64,000 bases of DNA. It comes from Diabrotica undecimpunctata (lineage: Eukaryota; Arthropoda; Insecta; Coleoptera; Chrysomelidae). Below the pieces are notes generated by a model. The model had not been told where the DNA came from, searched no databases, and worked only from the letters and a program-made list of their open reading frames with translations. The position numbers were made by a program, and so were the translations under genes. The stretch is taken from positions 125,501,461 through 125,565,460 of the forward strand of contig NC_092803.1 in NCBI RefSeq assembly GCF_040954645.1, read 5' to 3'. Shown here piece by piece: positions 3,158-64,000 of the stretch. How positions within the stretch are numbered: position 1 is the stretch's first letter; each line of letters opens with the position of its first letter.

Positions 3158-4582
3158 CCTATTGAATGAGATACACGAACTAATAGTAAACATATAGAAT
3201 AATAAACAACTGCCACAAGACTGGAATACCGGAGTAATTATTCCACTACATAAAAAGGGAGATCAGCTTCAATGTAAAAACTACCGGGCAATAATGCTAC
3301 TGACTGTGGCATATAAAATACTGTCAAATATTGTGTATGACCGATTGAGACCATATGCGGAATAAATAGTTGGGGGATATCAATGTGGCTTCCGCAGGCA
3401 GAAGTCCACAATAGATCAGATCTTCGTCTTGAGGCAAATCTTGGAAAAGACTAGTGAATTTAATATAGACACACATCATCTTTTCATTGACTTTGAGAGT
3501 GCCTATGATAGCATCCATCGAGAATTTCTGATCCATGCACTGAAAGAGTTTAATATTCCAACTCAACTCATTGATATCATAAAAGAAACACTTAAAATAC
3601 AAAGCAAAATTCGAATTCAAAACAAACTAACAGATACAATTTATGTGAGAACATGCATACGACAGGGAGATGCCCTATCCTGTATTCTATTCAACTTCAC
3701 ATTAGAGAAAATAATTAGGGAGTCAAAAGTCAACACCAGAGGAACAATAATAACAAAAAGTGTACAAATATTGGCATTTGCAGATGATGTTGATATCATA
3801 GCTAGAAGCGAAAGAGAGATGATAGAAGCATTTAATGCGATAGAAACAGCGGCACAAAACAGTGGCCTAAACATTAATGAAATAAAAACCAAATACATGA
3901 AGGCCAGTAAATCGACAGGCCAAAGAACCTACAGAATCTGACAATAGGAGACTATAACATCGAAAGCGTGAAAAATTTTACATCCCTAGGTTCACTAGTT
4001 ACCGCAGATAACAATGTCAGTGAAGAAGTTAAGAGAAGAATACATATCGCTAATAAAACATATAATGGACTAATTAAACATCTAGGATCTAACATCACAA
4101 AAAAAACCAAATGCAAAATATACAAGACCCTGATAAAACCGGTCCTTGTATATGGATCAGAGACATGGACCTGGACACTGTCGAAAAGCGATGAAAACCT
4201 ATTAGGCACATTTGAACGAAAAATCCTTAAACACATATATAAGAGGGTAAAGGAAAATGACATATGGCGAAGAAGATATAACTTTGAACTATACACAGCA
4301 TACAATGAACCCGAGATCATAACATCCATAAAGATCGGACGTCTGCGCTGGATGGGCCATGTTGAACGAATGTTGGAGACTGAAACACCAAAACATATTA
4401 TGAGGCAAACACCAGTAGGAAGAAGGTCAAAGGGAAGACCCAAACTTAAATACAGGGAACAAGTGGAACAAAATCTGAAAACGCTTGAGATTACCAACTG
4501 GAAAAACAAAGCAAGGAACAGAACAGAATGGCGGAAAATCCTAGAACAAGCCAGGACCCAGAAAGGGTTGTCGAGCTACTGA
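3158..4582 (+). pseudogene. LINE reverse transcriptase and C-terminal region
   Basis: This continues the element after the nested insertion. Visible are QDWNTGVIIPLHKKGD, CKNYRAIMLL, the fingers/palm block HLFIDFESAYDSI near 3480-3515, RQGDALSCILFNF near 3660-3700 and the catalytic FADD in LAFADDVDIIARS near 3775-3805. The C-terminal part at 3968-4582 holds the ETWT block, GRLRWMGHVERM and a basic GRRSKGRPK stretch. In-frame stops near 3197 and 3364 and a break near 3941 disable it. The catalytic aspartates themselves remain. Confidence 0.88.
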
Positions 4583-21915: not shown

Positions 21916-22985
21916 AGAGGTGTGTCTATAGCCGTGCATACAAAACTCAAAAACAATATCAAGAGTTGGGAAGAGATAGACGAGCAGATCATTATGATGG
22001 ATCTTGAGAAACATGGGGAGACGATAGTTATAATAGGAGTATATGCTCCTAGTGACGACTCTGATACAAAAGTTAAGGATGAATTCTATGACAAATTGCT
22101 TGACGTGTTGACCCATGTAAACCGATCCAAAGAAATATGCCTATTAGGAGATTTCAATGCTCGGGTAGGCAAACAATTACAAGACAATGTGGTAGGAAGA
22201 TATGGATGAAGACAAAATAAACAACAACGGAGAGCGACTCATTGATCTTTGTGAAACATTACAGCTTAAAATAATGAATGGATTTTATCAGCACAAAGAT
22301 ATACATAAATTTACCTGGGAACAACCAAAGAAAAAGATAAAATCTATAATCGACTATCTCATCCAACCAGAAAACAAAAGGCTCCAAACAAATGACGTAA
22401 GGGTGTATCGTGGTGCCAAATGCGGATCTGACCACTATATGGTGGTCGCAAAATAGCCATACACTACAGGAAAGTAAACAAGAACAAAATTGAACAGGAG
22501 AAGGTAGCAGCTTCCACAAAGATAAGATATAATATTGATAGCCTCAAACAAGAATCAGTACAATTCCTCTACAAACTTAGACTAGCCTCAAAACTAACTC
22601 ACTTAACTCGAAGAGAAACAGCCGAAAAAAAATATCAAGATATAAAAAATTGCATTCATCAGGCGGCCAAAGAGGCATTGGGGTACGAAGAAGCTGACAA
22701 AAGAAAAAATCCTGAGTGGTGGAACGAAGAAGTAGGAAAATTAATTAAAGACAAAAAAAAAGCTTATCAAACATGGCTATCCACGAAAGACTCAGAAGAC
22801 CGCAGAATTTACAGCAGACTCAACAGGGAAGCAAAGAAGGAAGTCACTAAAAGAAAAAACGAAATGTGGGAAGAGAAATGCGAAGAAATGGACCGATGCT
22901 TAGGAGGGACCAAAGTGACACAAGCTTGGAAATTCATAAAAAGTATTAGAAAAGAAAGAAAAGATGAGGGAAATATAAAAACCTG
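21916..22985 (+). pseudogene. LINE endonuclease and linker, broken
   Basis: The frame begins GVSIAVHTKLKNNI and carries ETIVIIGVYAPSDD (near 22020), EICLLGDFNARVG (22130-22170) and, after a one-base slip at 22203, a TWEQ block, a SIIDYLI block and CGSDHYMVVA (22420-22450). The D-x-N and SDH catalytic blocks are intact. A stop at 22454-22456 and another at 22984-22986 separate it from the reverse transcriptase. The linker has PEWWNEEVGKLI (22710-22745). The first part of the endonuclease is missing through 5' truncation. Confidence 0.87.
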
Positions 22986-23048
22986 ATTCAAAATAAAAAG
23001 TGGGAAAAATATTACGAAACGCTATTAACAGAAAGTAGGCACGAATTT

Positions 23049-24579
23049 ATGGAAAGACCTGACCATATTTCAATGACAGAAAACTCAGAGGTGCATAAGA
23101 TAAACAAAGAAGAACTGAAAAAAGAATTGAAACAAATGAAAAATAAAAAAGCACCCGGGCCTGGAGACATTCCCATCGAGTTGGTGAAACATGGACTGGA
23201 TGCTCTTTTGGAAAGCATAGTGAATATTTTCAATAAATGCTTAATTGAAGGCCAAACGATTCCAGACGACTGGAATTTGGCCCACATTAGCCCCATTTAT
23301 AAAAAGGGAGACAGAAAAGAATGCGGAAATTATAGAGCCATTAGCGTAACTAGCTCGCTGGGAAGGTTATATGGTCGTATATTGAAAAGAAGAATAGAAG
23401 AGGAGTATAAAGAAATTGAAGAACAAAGCGGCTTCAGAGCAGGAAGATCGTGCGTGGACAACACATTTACCCTTCAACAAGTAATTGAAAAACGAACAGC
23501 TCGAAACCTCCCTACGCATCTGGTATTTATAGATCTGGAGAAGGCTTATGATATAGTTCTTTTAAAACTCTTATTTAGTGTCTTGACGAAAACGGACCTT
23601 AGTAAAACATATCTAAAAGCAATACTGAACATCTATAAATGTCCTCAAAGCACTGTAAAAACAGGAAATACTTTCTCAAGGGTATTTACAGTAACGAAAG
23701 GCTTAAGACAAGGGTGTTGTCTTTCCCCCACCCTATTCAAAATATATATCCAAGAAGCACTGCACCAATGGAGACAAAAATGTGCGGGAATGGGGTTGAA
23801 GCTTAACAACCATTATCTGACAACGCTGTTCTTTGCAGATGATCCAGTACTAATTGCAAGCTGTGAAGAAGATGCAGATTATATGCTTAGAAAGCTGAAA
23901 GATGAATACGAAAAATGGGGGATGAGTATGAATATGTCTACAACAGAATATATGCGAATAGGCAGTGAAGACGAAGACCCGGATTTGGAAATTAGACAAA
24001 TAAAAAGGTGCTACGAATACAAATATTTGGGAAGTATTATCTGCAGTAAAGGAACAACGGAACGAGATATAGACTATAGAGTGCAACAAGGCAGGAAGAG
24101 TGTTCAAATTCTGAATTCAATACTTTGGTCCAACAAAGCTACTATGAGAACTAAAATGACTATCTACAAAGTAATTGTAGAGCCCATTCTTACATATGGA
24201 GCAGAATGTTGGCAAATGACAGTAAAAGGAAAGAAAAAAGTTGACACGGTTGAAATGGACTACCTAAGAAGAGCTTGCCGTATATCAAGAGTAGAACGTA
24301 TACCTAATTCTGAAATTAGAAGAAAAACAGATAGAGTACATACAACTTCTGAAAGAATAGAAACTAGACAGTTAATATGGTATGGACACGTACAGAGGAT
24401 GGACGACAACAGATGGCCAAAAAGAGCTATGGAATACAATCCAAGTAATAGAAGGAAACGAGGAAGACCAGCCAAGTCTTGGATACAAGGTGTTATGGAA
24501 ACCATGAAAGATAGAGCCATTGATGAAGACACCTGGAGAGATCGAAATGCGGGAAGCGGCAGAAGCTGTAGGATCCCCG

Positions 24580-24662
<83 letters not shown>
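23049..24662 (+). CDS. Reverse transcriptase part of a LINE polyprotein, long open frame
   Basis: 537 codons are open. In order: KAPGPGDIPIELVKHGLDAL (about residues 37-56), WNLAHISPIYKKGD, NYRAISVTSSLGR, EEQSGFRAGRSCVDNTF, the first catalytic Asp in VFIDLEKAYD (near 160-168), TKGLRQGCCLSPTLFKIY and the catalytic FADD at residues 262-265 (23832-23843). The C-terminal part has YKYLGSIICSKG, ILTYGAECWQ, LIWYGHVQRMDD and RKRGRPAKSW. The first ATG shown is not the native start, since the frame belongs to a longer polyprotein. The last 25 or so residues are read-through of the TA tail. All catalytic residues are present, so the copy is young, but it lacks an intact endonuclease. Confidence 0.88.
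24582..24660. repeat. (TA)n tract, 3' tail of the LINE
   Basis: It lies between the end of the LINE coding region and the second TSD copy, so it is the element's 3' tail, possibly expanded after insertion. Confidence 0.9.
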
Positions 24663-44770: not shown

Positions 44771-45192
44771 CACGTCAATTAATGTTAAAAGAAAATACTA
44801 AATTTTTTTTTAATACACTTTTCCTCACAAAAATCGAGTAAGAAACCATCAATACTATCCACTTTGAAAAAGGAAAAAATCCAAATCTAGAAAAAGGAAA
44901 CGTTTTTAGTAAGCAATTAAAAACGAGAGAGCTCAGAAATCGCGAAGAGAATATAAACATCGGTAAGATAGTTTCGAAACAAATTCAGATTTCTGCTTTA
45001 ATCTGAACCTTCTAAAAATGCAAGGTATAACAGACGTTGATAAAGATGTTAATAGAGACATGGGAAATCTAAAATTTGCATTCCACGACATGTCTATCAA
45101 CTAAGCAGAAATCCTTAACAAATTTGTTTCTTGTACTCATACAGAGTAGATCCGAATAAAATGAAAAAGACAGCAAAGATTTGATTTCACGT

Positions 45193-45269
45193 ACAAAGCG
45201 TCTATGTATCTGTTGATACGTATTTCGACTTAATAAGTCTCATCAGAACAGTTATTCGTAGGCGTTTTC
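45193..45269 (-). ncRNA. Hammerhead ribozyme, type I (copy A)
   Basis: On the minus strand CUGAUGA (45246-45240) is followed by stem II gacuu-auu-aaguc, GAAA (45226-45223), a palindromic stem III UAC/GUA and UC. Predicted cleavage lies between 45215 and 45214. Stem I pairs CUGUU with AACAG; the outer CUACG/CAUAG helix carries one mismatch. Confidence 0.88.
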
Positions 45270-45841
45270 AACGTGAAAAATGAATCTTTTCTGTCTTTTA
45301 AGAAGCAACAATAAAATGGCTTCGTTATGGACGCAATAGCGACATCTGATAGAAAAATCGTTAAGATGGTTTTGAAACAAATTCAGATTTCTGCTTTAAT
45401 CTGAACCTTCTAAAAATGCAAGGTATAACAGACGTTGATAAAGATGTTAATAGAGACAAAGGGAATCTAAAATTTGCATTCCACGACATGTCTTACAGAC
45501 AGCAGAATAGACTCTTTGTACGTGAAATCAAATCTTTGCTGTCTTTTTCATTTTATTCGGATCTACTCTGTATGAGTACAAGAAACAAATTCGTTAAGTA
45601 TTGCTGCTTAGTTGATAGACATGTCGTGGAATGCGAATTTTAGATTCCCCATGTCTCTATTAACATCTTTATCAACGACTGTTATACCTTGCATTTTTAG
45701 AAGGTTCAGATTAAAGCAGAAATCTGAATTTGTTTCGAAACTATCTTACCGATTTTTCTATCAGATGTCGCTATTGCGTCCAAAACGAAGCCATTTTATT
45801 GTTGCTTCTTAAAAGACAGAAAAGATTCATTTTTCTCGTTG

Positions 45842-45917
45842 AAAACGCCTATGAATAACTGTTCTGATGAGACTTATTACGTCGAAATACGTATCAACAG
45901 ATACATAGACGCTTTGT
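45842..45917 (+). ncRNA. Hammerhead ribozyme, type I (copy B)
   Basis: CUGAUGA at 45864-45870, GAAA at 45884-45887, stem III UAC/GUA at 45888-45893, cleavage after C45895. Stem I: CUGUU/AACAG, a 5x3 internal loop, then CUAUG/CAUAG and further weak pairs. Stem II (gacuu-auu-acguc) has lost one pair. Confidence 0.88.
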
Positions 45918-46239
45918 ACGTGAAATCAAATCTTTGCTGTCTTTTTCATTTTATTCGGATCTACTCTGTATGAGTACAAGAAACAAATTCGTTAAGGATT
46001 TCTGCTTAGTTGATAGACATGTCGTGGAATGCAAATTTTAGATTCCCCATGTCTCTATTAACATCTTTATCAACGTCTGTTATACCTTGCATTTTTAGAA
46101 GTTTCAGATTAAAGCAGAAATCTGAATTTGTTTCGAAACTATCTTACCAATTTTTCTATCAGATGTCGCTATTGCGTCCATAACGAAGCCATTTTACTGT
46201 TGCTTCTTAAAAGACAAAAAAGATTCATTTTTCACGTTG

Positions 46240-46315
46240 AAAACGCCTATGAATACCTGTTCTGATGAGATTTATTAAGTCGAAATACGTATCAACAGAT
46301 ACATAGACGCTTTGT
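46240..46315 (+). ncRNA. Hammerhead ribozyme, type I (copy C)
   Basis: CUGAUGA at 46262-46268, stem II gauuu-auu-aaguc with a U-G pair, GAAA at 46282-46285, stem III UAC/GUA, cleavage after C46293. Both stem I helices (CUGUU/AACAG and CUAUG/CAUAG) are intact. Its cleavage site is exactly 398 nt from that of copy B. Confidence 0.9.
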
Positions 46316-47101
46316 ACGTGAAATCAAATCCTTGCTGTCTTTTTCATTTCAGAATATAAACAATATAGAGGTAAGGGAAATATTGTTTATTCAAAAACAC
46401 AAGATCCACTGTGTAGTTACCCCAATAAATGCTATGAGTTATTTGCATCTCATGCAGAACTGCAGACAATTTATGTTAATTTTTGGGGCATGAACAGTTT
46501 TGATACACAAAATTCTTACTAACAAGATTGTATGAGATCTAAAAATGTAACTAGGAGGAAAACTAAAGCACTAGTGTCAAAAAGATCTTAAATTATTGAA
46601 TATAAATTAAAATCACAAGAAAAAGTGATGTTAAGGTATGCAAAATTTCTTTCCTAAGTATCCATGGCTTACAGAAAAATCTAGGTCGGGTTGAAAATCT
46701 AGTAATACAATTAAAAACTGGATCAAATACTCCAAAATCAGATCTAAGAGGTCGACATTCAAATCATCCTAAAAAATATTTCAATTCTAATATAGATTTT
46801 CTGAAATCTTTTATTGAAAGCTTACCTAAGTACGAAAGCCATTACACCTGTGCTACAGAAATAGACAATATATGAGTATGGAGTACTCTATTCAGACTTG
46901 TTATGAGAAATATGTAGGAGAATGCATTTTGCAAAAGAAAACCTCAGTTTCTGCAGATGAATTTAGAAGAATATTTACTTAAGAATATAATATAAGTTTC
47001 AAAACTCCAAAAATGGATAAATTTCAAGCGTGCGATAAGTTTTTAGTAGCTTTAGAAAATGCCAAGTTACACCATAATGAAACTAAGGTTGAAAAAATTA
47101 A

Positions 47102-53019: not shown

Positions 53020-53995
53020 CTTCTTCTTCTTCCTCTTTATAATCAATTCTGCTTGTTCATTGGCGGATTAATACCTCTATTGTCACTCCATCTTTTGCGC
53101 GGTCGTTCGATACTTCTTCTGCCGATTGGTGACTTATCTCTTGCTATTTTAACGACACGGGTCTTCTTCATTCTGCTTATGTGGTTATTCCATTCTTTTT
53201 TTCTATTTTGTATCCATTCATTTATACACTGTACGTTACCTTTTCTTGTAATGTCTTCACTTCTCTTTCGATCTCTCAACGTAATTCCTTTCAGTACTCT
53301 CATCTCTGCCGTTTTCAGTAGCCTTTGCATTGTGGCTGTGTCGGGTCTTGTTTCTGAGGCATATGTCATTATTGGTCTTACAGTGGCTTTATAAATTCCT
53401 GACTTGATCTCAGTGTCAATGTGTCTGTTTCGCCATATAGTGTTATTAAGGGATCCTGTCAGTCTATTTGCTTTTTATACTTGATCTCTCACTTCTTTGT
53501 CCAGGTCTCCATAGCTAGACAGTGTAATTCCCAGGTATTTTATTTTCATTACTTGTTCAATACTGATGCCATCAATTTCTATTTTACATCTAATTGGTTC
53601 TTTGCTGACTACTATTGTTTTAGTTTTCTGAGATGAGATTGTCATATTAAATTCTTTTGCTCTTATGTTAAATGTGTGGACCAGTCTTTGCAGACTATCT
53701 TCGTCTTGGGCTATCAATATTGCGTCGTCTGCGTAACAGAGTATTTTTACCTCTTTGTTTCCCATTCTGTATCCTCTTCCTTTGTTAATGGTTTTGATGA
53801 TTTCAGCCATGATCAAATTGAAGAGCATGGGGCTCAATGAATCCCCTTGTCTTATTCCGCTGCCTATTTCCATAGGTTTTATAAGTTGTCTATCTATTTT
53901 GACTTCCATTTTGTTGTTTTGGTAGATGTTATCGATAGTTTTATAATATTTTATAAAATTTAACTTCTCTATTACTACTTTAGGGTACTCTAGGG
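53020..53995 (-). pseudogene. 5'-truncated LINE reverse transcriptase, 11-bp TSD
   Basis: tactttagtat at 53009-53019 and 53996-54006 flanks the piece. The minus frame 53909-53475 reads EIGSGIRQGDSLSPMLFNLI and VKILCYADDAILIA with the catalytic YADD, then IKYLGITLSSYGDL. After a stop at 53475-53477 it resumes with RPIMTYASETRPD, WIQNRKKEWNNHISRM and a basic end (GRRSIERPRKRWSDN). The (gaa)n tail is at its left end. Only two or three breaks are present, so it is fairly young. The endonuclease and first part of the palm are missing. Confidence 0.9.
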
Positions 53996-54006
53996 TACTT
54001 TAGTAT

Positions 54007-62812: not shown

Positions 62813-64000
62813 GATATGAGCGTCCCGATCAGCAACTCTAAATGTAGGCCCAGGATGGCGGAATCTACAAGACTCTCTCCAGCTCTGCATGAACCCCTCA
62901 GAAAGAAATAACAGTCTACTGTCTTAGAAGGACACGATCTCTTCGGGTTAATACAACACACAGTAATTCGTACGCCGGTTTCTCGGAAGATCACTTCAAG
63001 CATGCTTCTGATAATCTTCCAATCCAGATTTTCTAGTGCATGGCCTATCTTGGGTAAGACCAAATTCTTGATGTCATAATTGCACACGATTTTCTTCAAA
63101 TTAGTTAGAACACGCCATATATCCTCGTAGCTTGCCCTGCCTGTTTACGACTTCCTGGTCACCATATACAGCAAAGATCGAAGACCATCTTCTAATCTCA
63201 GTACTCTTCCAACTTTAGGCTGCTGGTTTTTTAACTCGTCCAAACGACCGAAATTTCTATAGAATACAGATGAAATTCCTTTAATCATCTCAAGATCTTG
63301 GGCAACACAGTGGGCTAGAGAGACGTTATGCGGAACACTAAAAAGATCCTGCTGAACTTCTGTCGTCACGCCAAATCTAGCACTCTTTCTGTCTGCGTAA
63401 TTTGACATAAATTCATTAAAACTTGGTCGCCGGTCATCGTTGATCTCATGTTGAAGGGTTCGTGCTTCTTTTGTTTCATTTGAGCCAGCATATGGTGCAA
63501 GACGATTTATGTGAACTACTCTTGGTTTACCTTTCGGCAACTTCTTAATTCGGTATATTACGTCATTTATTCTTTTTTTAATTTCATACGGACCTTTCCA
63601 TTGTCTTTGCAGTTTGGGAGACAAGCCTCGACGACGTTGTGGATTATAAAGCCAAACAAGATCATATACTTCATAGCTTTCATTCTTGCGTCGAGAATCA
63701 TATTGATCTTTCATTCTGTCACTTGCTAACTGGATGTGCTGTCGGGCAAGTTCATGAATGTTATTCATTCGTAACTTTAGGAGGTCGAACATAATCTTAG
63801 CTTGCAACATGTTCTTCGGAAAATCTGCAGCCAAACTCTAGGTCGCAGGGCAAACGAACTTCACGACCTAACATCAGGCAGGCTGGAGTCTGGCCTGTAG
63901 TTTCATTCATGGCCGAGCGGTAGGCCATTAAGAATAAATGAATGTGCTGGTCCCAATCTCTTTGATGTTCTGATACAACTTTGGACAGGTGTTTACCTAT
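62810..64000 (-). pseudogene. Ty3/gypsy integrase C-terminus followed by macro domain and CCCH finger
   Basis: The frame enters the window at 64000 with a gypsy integrase core end (HLSKVVSEHQRDWD, GQTPACLMLGRE) and shifts near 63835. In the 63834-63145 frame come the integrase tail with W-K-GPY (residues 80-83) and VVHINRLAPY (106-115). A macro domain of the TARG1/OARD1 type starts near residue 160: DLFS, SLAHCV (172-177), GIS (186-188). After an in-frame stop at 63147-63145 it continues in the same frame with SYEDIW and IGHALENLDW to about 62950. A C-X7-C-X5-C-X3-H zinc finger follows (Cys codons 62911-62913, 62887-62889, 62867-62869; His 62855-62857), broken by a 2-nt duplication between its second and third Cys. 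By alignment from memory the two catalytic TARG1 positions (Lys84, Asp125) read Arg and Glu. The breaks make this copy non-functional. Confidence 0.8.

Follow-up and report, generated by a model that had tools for sequence, protein, structure and literature searches.

Non-LTR retrozymes with type I hammerheads are a known class of elements in animals, with insects among the hosts (Cervera and de la Pena, 2020; PMC7229834). In that account, they are non-coding, low-GC units of about 170-400 nt, each with a type I hammerhead, that occur as tandem copies, number in the thousands per genome and are flanked, when duplications are present, by target duplications longer than 4 bp. Penelope-like elements are named there as a strong helper candidate, and the return of the RNA to DNA, with the circle as the template, is only proposed in the discussion (PMC7229834). 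Plant LTR retrozymes are likewise hammerhead-bearing, non-autonomous retroelements with a circular RNA (PMC4918200), but their hammerheads are of type III, and they have LTRs and duplications of 4 bp (as given in PMC7229834). The Penelope elements of the rotifer Adineta vaga have inverted, mostly head-to-head ends, duplications of 8-10 bp and an optional tail at one of the two inverted ends; how the inverted ends originate is left open in the discussion of that study (PMC3846280). In vitro, the protein of the Penelope-like element Poseidon of Anolis, an element with a hammerhead motif, cuts and extends both target strands with a preference for AT-rich targets, and starts synthesis inside the RNA at two sites that are alike on the top and bottom strand (PMC11167929). 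It uses unprocessed RNA, hammerhead cleavage being dispensable in the assay (PMC11167929).

The element that we describe here lies in a 64,000-nt stretch of the Diabrotica undecimpunctata genome (the window, meaning the whole of that stretch). It resembles the animal retrozymes in the features listed above, with units of 398 and 400 nt in two subfamilies, and by the features tested is best read as a member of that class. Like the rotifer Penelope, it has inverted, head-to-head ends and, like Poseidon, it combines a hammerhead motif and AT-rich targets with, as proposed below, two internal starts and extension of both strands. It is unlike the account in PMC7229834 in its head-to-head composites, in having two fixed positions for the outer ends and in pairing one of each, none of which is described there; the word "inverted" is absent from the main text. 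Inverted retrozymes are not described in the pertinent passages of PMC7761336, PMC8490949 and PMC8781251 either. The open-licence literature, covered mostly as titles and abstracts, yielded no description of a fixed two-site, one-of-each, head-to-head architecture, and no account of retrozymes in Coleoptera was found in it. The retrozyme class is known; this architecture was not found in print.

A sequence-only reading of the window had proposed a single tandem array of hammerhead units, inserted as one piece. The 12-bp direct repeat on which that view was based (AGAATATAAACA) is exact and has no other copy in the window on either strand. The 398-nt unit also stood, both as the spacing between the predicted cuts of hammerheads B and C and as the period found by a tandem repeat finder over 2.1 copies (Table 1). 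The insert (44960-46350) is not one array, however. A repeat search identified inverted repeats at 44951-45493 and 45617-46159 (543 nt, 97% complementary), and mapping on the unit, numbered from the first base 3' of a predicted cut (45896), separated a minus arm of about 1.3 units from a plus arm of about 2.1 units, placed head-to-head between the target duplications. The minus arm maps from unit position 264 (255 without the duplication) down to 120, and the plus arm from 10 to 56. The main point, missed by the earlier reading, is that the arms are inverted and their outer ends are two fixed internal positions of the unit, not the ribozyme cut.

Table 1. Features of the inverted composite insert in the window.
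Feature	Positions	Strand	Basis
Left copy of the 12-bp target-site duplication, AGAATATAAACA	44948..44959	+	exact repeat and duplication test
Minus arm: unit ~255 (site B, outer end) via 1/398 to 120 (inner end)	44960..45493	-	unit mapping
Type I hammerhead motif A (limits of the sequence-only reading), predicted cleavage after 45215	45193..45269	-	descriptor and comparison
Arm junction, 13 nt left over by local alignment	45494..45506	.	unit mapping
Plus arm: unit 10 (inner end) to 56 (site A, outer end), ~2.1 units	45507..46349	+	tandem repeat, mapping
Type I hammerhead motif B (limits of the sequence-only reading), predicted cleavage after C45895; a broken pair in stem II	45842..45917	+	descriptor and comparison
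398-nt reference unit, position 1 = base after predicted cleavage	45896..46293	+	
Type I hammerhead motif C (limits of the sequence-only reading), predicted cleavage after C46293	46240..46315	+	descriptor and comparison
Single base between plus arm and right duplication, mismatching the unit	46350..46350	+	
Right copy of the 12-bp target-site duplication	46351..46362	+	exact repeat and duplication test

The longest stop-to-stop frame within the insert is 92 amino acids, and an open reading frame with reverse transcriptase and GIY-YIG endonuclease is lacking from it. Penelope-like elements differ in encoding both activities, and in relation to them the insert would be a dependent element. The proposal that it had landed in a transposase-like gene found no backing in Pfam, which gave no match above the cut-off in three flanking pieces. 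Elsewhere in the window, positions 22968-24662 are by homology a piece of a reverse transcriptase, with a LINE open reading frame (22968-24584) whose named relatives are in beetles plus one fish further down the list. A second reverse-transcriptase piece (RVT_1) is at 53475-53999 and the C-terminal piece of an LTR-element integrase (Integrase_p58_C) at 63145-63837; by eye only, 3366-4582 resembles another such piece.

The three hammerheads of the sequence-only reading were the only cores matched in the window by a type I descriptor, which we wrote by hand from the type I consensus and which gave one match in 100 simulated 64-kb single strands. Each core admitted two alternative placements of stem III, and the placement with the longer stem leads to the predicted cleavage sites in Table 1. 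Stock covariance models, suggested as a check on these motifs, went the other way: no Rfam family reached its gathering score anywhere in the window. RAGATH-1-hammerhead, the sole hammerhead model matching at E<=10, stayed at 19.4-21.9 bits, where the cut-off is 56.3 (E 1.1-3.8). Unrelated Rfam models did equally well at these sites in the sub-threshold search. Nor was there support for the three hammerheads from plain local folding energy (z 0.10, -0.83 and -1.18). Comparison of copies did support them. The second subfamily (400 nt, represented by L069) is about 90% identical to the window unit and reads GCTTT/AAAGC in stem II (GACTT/AAGTC in the window unit) and CTATT/AATAG in stem I (CTGTT/AACAG in the window unit). 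Across 12 sequences (9 distinct), 98.7% of the cells pair, against at most 45.4% for slid versions of the structure, and 3 pairs are changed on both sides, as many as were reached by 3 of 500 shuffles. The structure was drawn from the very sequences tested, and L069 supplies all three double changes, so the support amounts to that of a single lineage. In motif B, one pair of stem II is broken. All core and stem III letters were intact in 78 of 105 hammerheads. No purifying selection was detected on the core, which varied by 2.07% vs. 1.93% elsewhere, as expected of neutrally decaying copies. These comparisons indicate that the hammerhead structure is conserved between the two subfamilies, with the cleavage itself predicted.

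A 26-nt piece of the unit occurs at 3978 places (units, not insertions) in the 1.74-Gb genome, compared to 0 for the reversed pattern, and copies are dispersed over contigs C1 to C10. A position-ordered sample, consisting of the first 100 of these places on one contig clustered at <1.6 kb, resolved into 56 clusters of 1 to 7 motif places. Both strands were represented in 15 of the 56, always in the order minus-then-plus (15/15), and this fraction is a lower bound, because two-armed copies whose short arm is without the 26-nt piece are missed. The same order was found in 15 of 15 mixed loci among the 400-nt-subfamily matches listed. Full units of this subfamily are 99-100% identical on C1 to C10 (among the matches listed), and we regard it as young. 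The window copy belongs to the older 398-nt subfamily, with a mean divergence of 3.4% between loci (segments <50 nt and the outer fragments of one locus, L040, omitted). The mapped set comprised 38 loci plus the window, drawn from the best 40 of 1400 candidates scored, and the young set 7 of the 15 listed mixed loci (L069-L075), drawn from the best 38 of 383 scored; neither is a random sample. The maps of the 39 loci and the young loci contain no LTR. One place on C4 (52161472-52171609) is a palindrome of about 10 kb with 11 minus and 14 plus full units at 100% identity among the matches listed, for which extreme rolling reverse transcription, later expansion and an assembly effect are alternative explanations. 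At L015 (1580-4175), the whole composite is present three times at an 828-bp period, apparently from a DNA-level duplication after insertion.

The outer ends of the 39 mapped loci, 29 of them composites and 10 single-arm copies, fall at two unit positions, A (~55) and B (~257). A script count gave one A and one B in 28 of the 29 composites. The exception, L040 (scored 226/259), is in fragments, and the outermost of these ends at site A (54); the outer fragments of this locus (positions <1200) were omitted from the A/B count and from the end-position, duplication, flank, divergence and junction-list analyses. If the arms chose independently at even odds, the chance of all 29 composites being A/B would be about 2e-9. 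The rule also holds in 7 of 7 young loci and in both of two further composites among the matches listed. When tallied for the 26 loci with strong duplications, loci without one being omitted, the A ends map to 49-71, with 21 of 26 at 53-57, and the 23 B ends to 253-264. Single-arm copies have their outer end at A (8 copies) or B (2 copies). The ribozyme cut site was the outer end in none of the 39 loci. Unit junctions across the cut site were scarless in 111 of 116 and 37 of 37 cases; the template had thus been either ligated or left uncut. At least one arm was longer than a unit in every one of the 29 composites.

Against 234 displaced controls, the best duplication flanking a copy lay beyond the 99th percentile at 26 of the 39 loci and beyond the control maximum at 22. 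Among the 26 strong duplications, 22 are 12-14 nt long, three of these with one mismatch. The other 13 loci gave no convincing duplication, and that of L013 is uninformative, as the locus lies within an (AT)n run. Young loci have exact 12-mers (four loci), a 10-mer (one) or an imperfect repeat (one), the left flank of L069 being barely covered. Except for one short similarity between L036 and L045, the flanks of the 39 loci are unrelated and, together with the differing inner junctions, this indicates independent insertions. The sequence-only reading had proposed a genome search for duplication-flanked copies, which these 26 loci now provide, and had named long centromeric satellite arrays lacking duplications as the outcome that would speak against it; in the position-ordered sample the clusters hold 1 to 7 places, which does not resemble such a satellite. 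Along with the conserved hammerhead and the dispersal over contigs C1 to C10, these results support its retrozyme-like interpretation.

The two arms of a locus also share private variants. Opposite arms of the same locus had 44 of 345 non-consensus alleles in common (27 loci, L015 omitted), whereas arms of different loci shared 3.8% (maximum 6.6% in 300 pairings, with 0 of 300 reaching the same-locus level). In the young set, position 83 is A in both arms of the readable L069 units and G in both arms of the other six loci. In L010 (1501-4027), the variants that the tandem units carry at 129, 195 and 369 do not nest. This requires either a mixed template or sequence exchange among the units afterwards; a single unchanging circle does not predict it, and the pattern counts against one. 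Folding of the window unit gave -93.0 as a circle (z -6.7 vs. 60 shuffles) and -97.2 as a linear molecule (z -5.0). In the predicted circular fold, A and B are on opposite strands of one large loop (51-66, 82-84, 240-267, 287-289 and 312-313). They share a loop in 36 of 39 units by a lenient measure (any unpaired base of each in a common loop), units so closely related that they amount to nearly one observation; equally spaced pairs lie in a common loop for 62 of the 398 starts. For openness, A ranks 10th of 389 and B 80th, and B positions 254-255 are mostly paired in the folds.

From the architecture, fixed ends, target duplications, shared variants and scarless unit junctions established above, we infer a retrozyme model in its cleavage, circle, helper and order of steps. 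As in the published class, a multimeric transcript would cleave itself at the type I hammerheads, and the 398- or 400-nt monomers would be ligated into circles. A helper endonuclease/reverse transcriptase, most likely Penelope-like, would make a staggered cut, offset by about 12-14 nt, in an AT-rich target. The two target 3' ends would then prime on the same circle, one at A (~55) and the other at B (~257), two sites that the fold predicts to lie opposite one another within a loop. Each enzyme may travel around the template more than once to produce tandem units; at the C4 locus, this may account for arms of at least 11 and 14 full units. Joining of the two arms on the inside would leave a head-to-head composite between the duplicated target bases. 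We consider it likely that the insert is a non-autonomous, non-coding animal non-LTR retrozyme whose circle was reverse-transcribed from the two ends of the target break, with a Penelope-like element as the probable helper. With evenly balanced confidence, we further propose that the composites record, in the genome, the action of two reverse transcriptases on a single small RNA circle, with the break ends annealing to opposite strands of the loop. Under this two-enzyme proposal, the one-A-one-B rule would follow from the single site of each kind on a monomeric circle, and "one A, one B" can be tested as the mark of a circle shared by two primers. If correct, the tail that Penelope-like elements carry on one inverted end only would reflect this rule at work in the helper. 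The family offers recent, near-identical insertions with fixed starts, both arms kept and sharp target duplications, and its A and B sites are directly usable in the published Penelope in vitro assay.

The genome contains candidates for such a helper, with at least 73 GIY-YIG matches (best 150 of 6686 candidates scored). L067 codes for 605 amino acids matching RVT_1 (29.0 bits, just below the cut-off of 29.6) and GIY-YIG (27.6 bits, above the cut-off of 22.6). This copy and L068 are Penelope-like elements with hammerhead-like motifs and inverted ends; both sit in (TA)n runs, a setting unlike that of most retrozyme copies and one that counts against the link. Head-to-head inverted ends are present among the genome's Penelope-like copies in L067, L068 and three further loci. 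A query with the L067 end identified four inverted loci among the best 40 candidates scored, three of which have one arm running through the query end (384) and the other stopping at 346, that is, a one-arm tail; the tail is on one arm only in L068 and on both arms in L067. These one-arm tails and the in vitro behavior of the Penelope-like protein make a Penelope-like element the best candidate, and probably the helper. The start sites differ in spacing: they are adjacent in Penelope-like elements (tail of 30-40 nt; PMC3846280; PMC11167929) and about 200 nt apart for A and B of the retrozyme. The likeness of the in vitro starts on the two strands (PMC11167929) counts against our reading. We found no end sequence shared between the unit and 22 Penelope-like loci.

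A LINE is a doubtful but possible helper. In L1 twin priming, one RNA is primed from both target ends, with inversion of the 5' part as the result; this RNA is linear and polyadenylated, and only one arm has a fixed start. LINEs would also be compatible with 12-14-nt duplications and with a U-rich RNA as the priming site. LINE-type reverse-transcriptase pieces are present within the window, and microhomology was above chance at A (1.65 vs. 0.97, 17 of 3000, chance-corrected), although not at B (1.22 vs. 0.93, 444 of 3000). Yet internal starts, at two sites and on both strands, are the behavior of the Penelope-like protein in vitro (PMC11167929), and Penelope-like copies of this genome have inverted ends, with the one-arm tail in three of four inverted loci plus L068.

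It is unlikely that the template was a linear multimer, that is, an uncut transcript, with the A/B pairing imposed by an asymmetric enzyme dimer with two sites. The use of unprocessed RNA in vitro, where hammerhead cleavage is not needed (PMC11167929), would agree with such a template, as would the non-identical units of L010. A multimer, however, has several A and B sites on offer, and A/A and B/B pairings were not seen among the mapped composites apart from the L040 artifact; moreover, the RNA of animal retrozymes is reported as partly to mostly circular (PMC7229834).

We consider it improbable that tandem cDNA was inserted as in an ordinary retrozyme and that the inverted arm arose by snap-back self-priming of the first cDNA. 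For Penelope, the rotifer study favors self-priming, with an antisense template, while leaving other routes possible (PMC3846280). Some young composites do have near-palindromic inner junctions (L072, 87/87; L073, 214/214; L071, 63/57), and the arms' inner ends sit nearer to one another on the unit than expected at random (median distance 70 nt against 99 nt, 452 of 20000), lying within 10 nt of each other in 6 of 36 composites where 2.2 are expected (365 of 20000). A fold-back, however, would lead the copy of the first arm back to where that arm began, and both outer ends should then be the same site. A/A was scored in 0 of 29 composites and the sole B/B score is the fragmented L040, with its outermost piece at A; in addition, the inner ends are more than 30 nt apart in 26 of the 36. 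The closeness of the inner ends is not predicted by twin priming alone and counts against our preferred reading of a circle copied from both target ends. It would be accounted for if the two arms ended at a common point, such as a break in the circle at which both enzymes halt, or if a minority of copies arose by fold-back. Finally, a satellite or a DNA-level inverted duplication involving no retroelement can be dismissed almost entirely, for the tandem units and the triplicated L015 composite would suit it, but the target duplications, unrelated flanks, locus-specific inner junctions, fixed outer ends, clusters of 1-7 places and dispersion from C1 to C10 would not, with one long array seen at C4:52.16-52.17 Mb.

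Two further sequence matches were recorded during the helper search. Between the unit and the 22 Penelope-like loci, the only significant match is a 26-nt stretch on the minus strand of L047 (584-609) and L048 (632-657), where 24 of 26 nt agree with unit positions 133-158. The closing stem of the hairpin that holds it shows matched substitutions (GACATG/CATGTC vs. GACAAG/CTTGTC). The element in these two loci is uncertain, and we set the match aside as helper evidence. A different hammerhead-like motif, CTGAGGATGCTCTAGTGAGCGAAAG, occurs at about 2290-2540 of L054 as two copies on opposite strands, and possibly represents another retrozyme or Penelope family.
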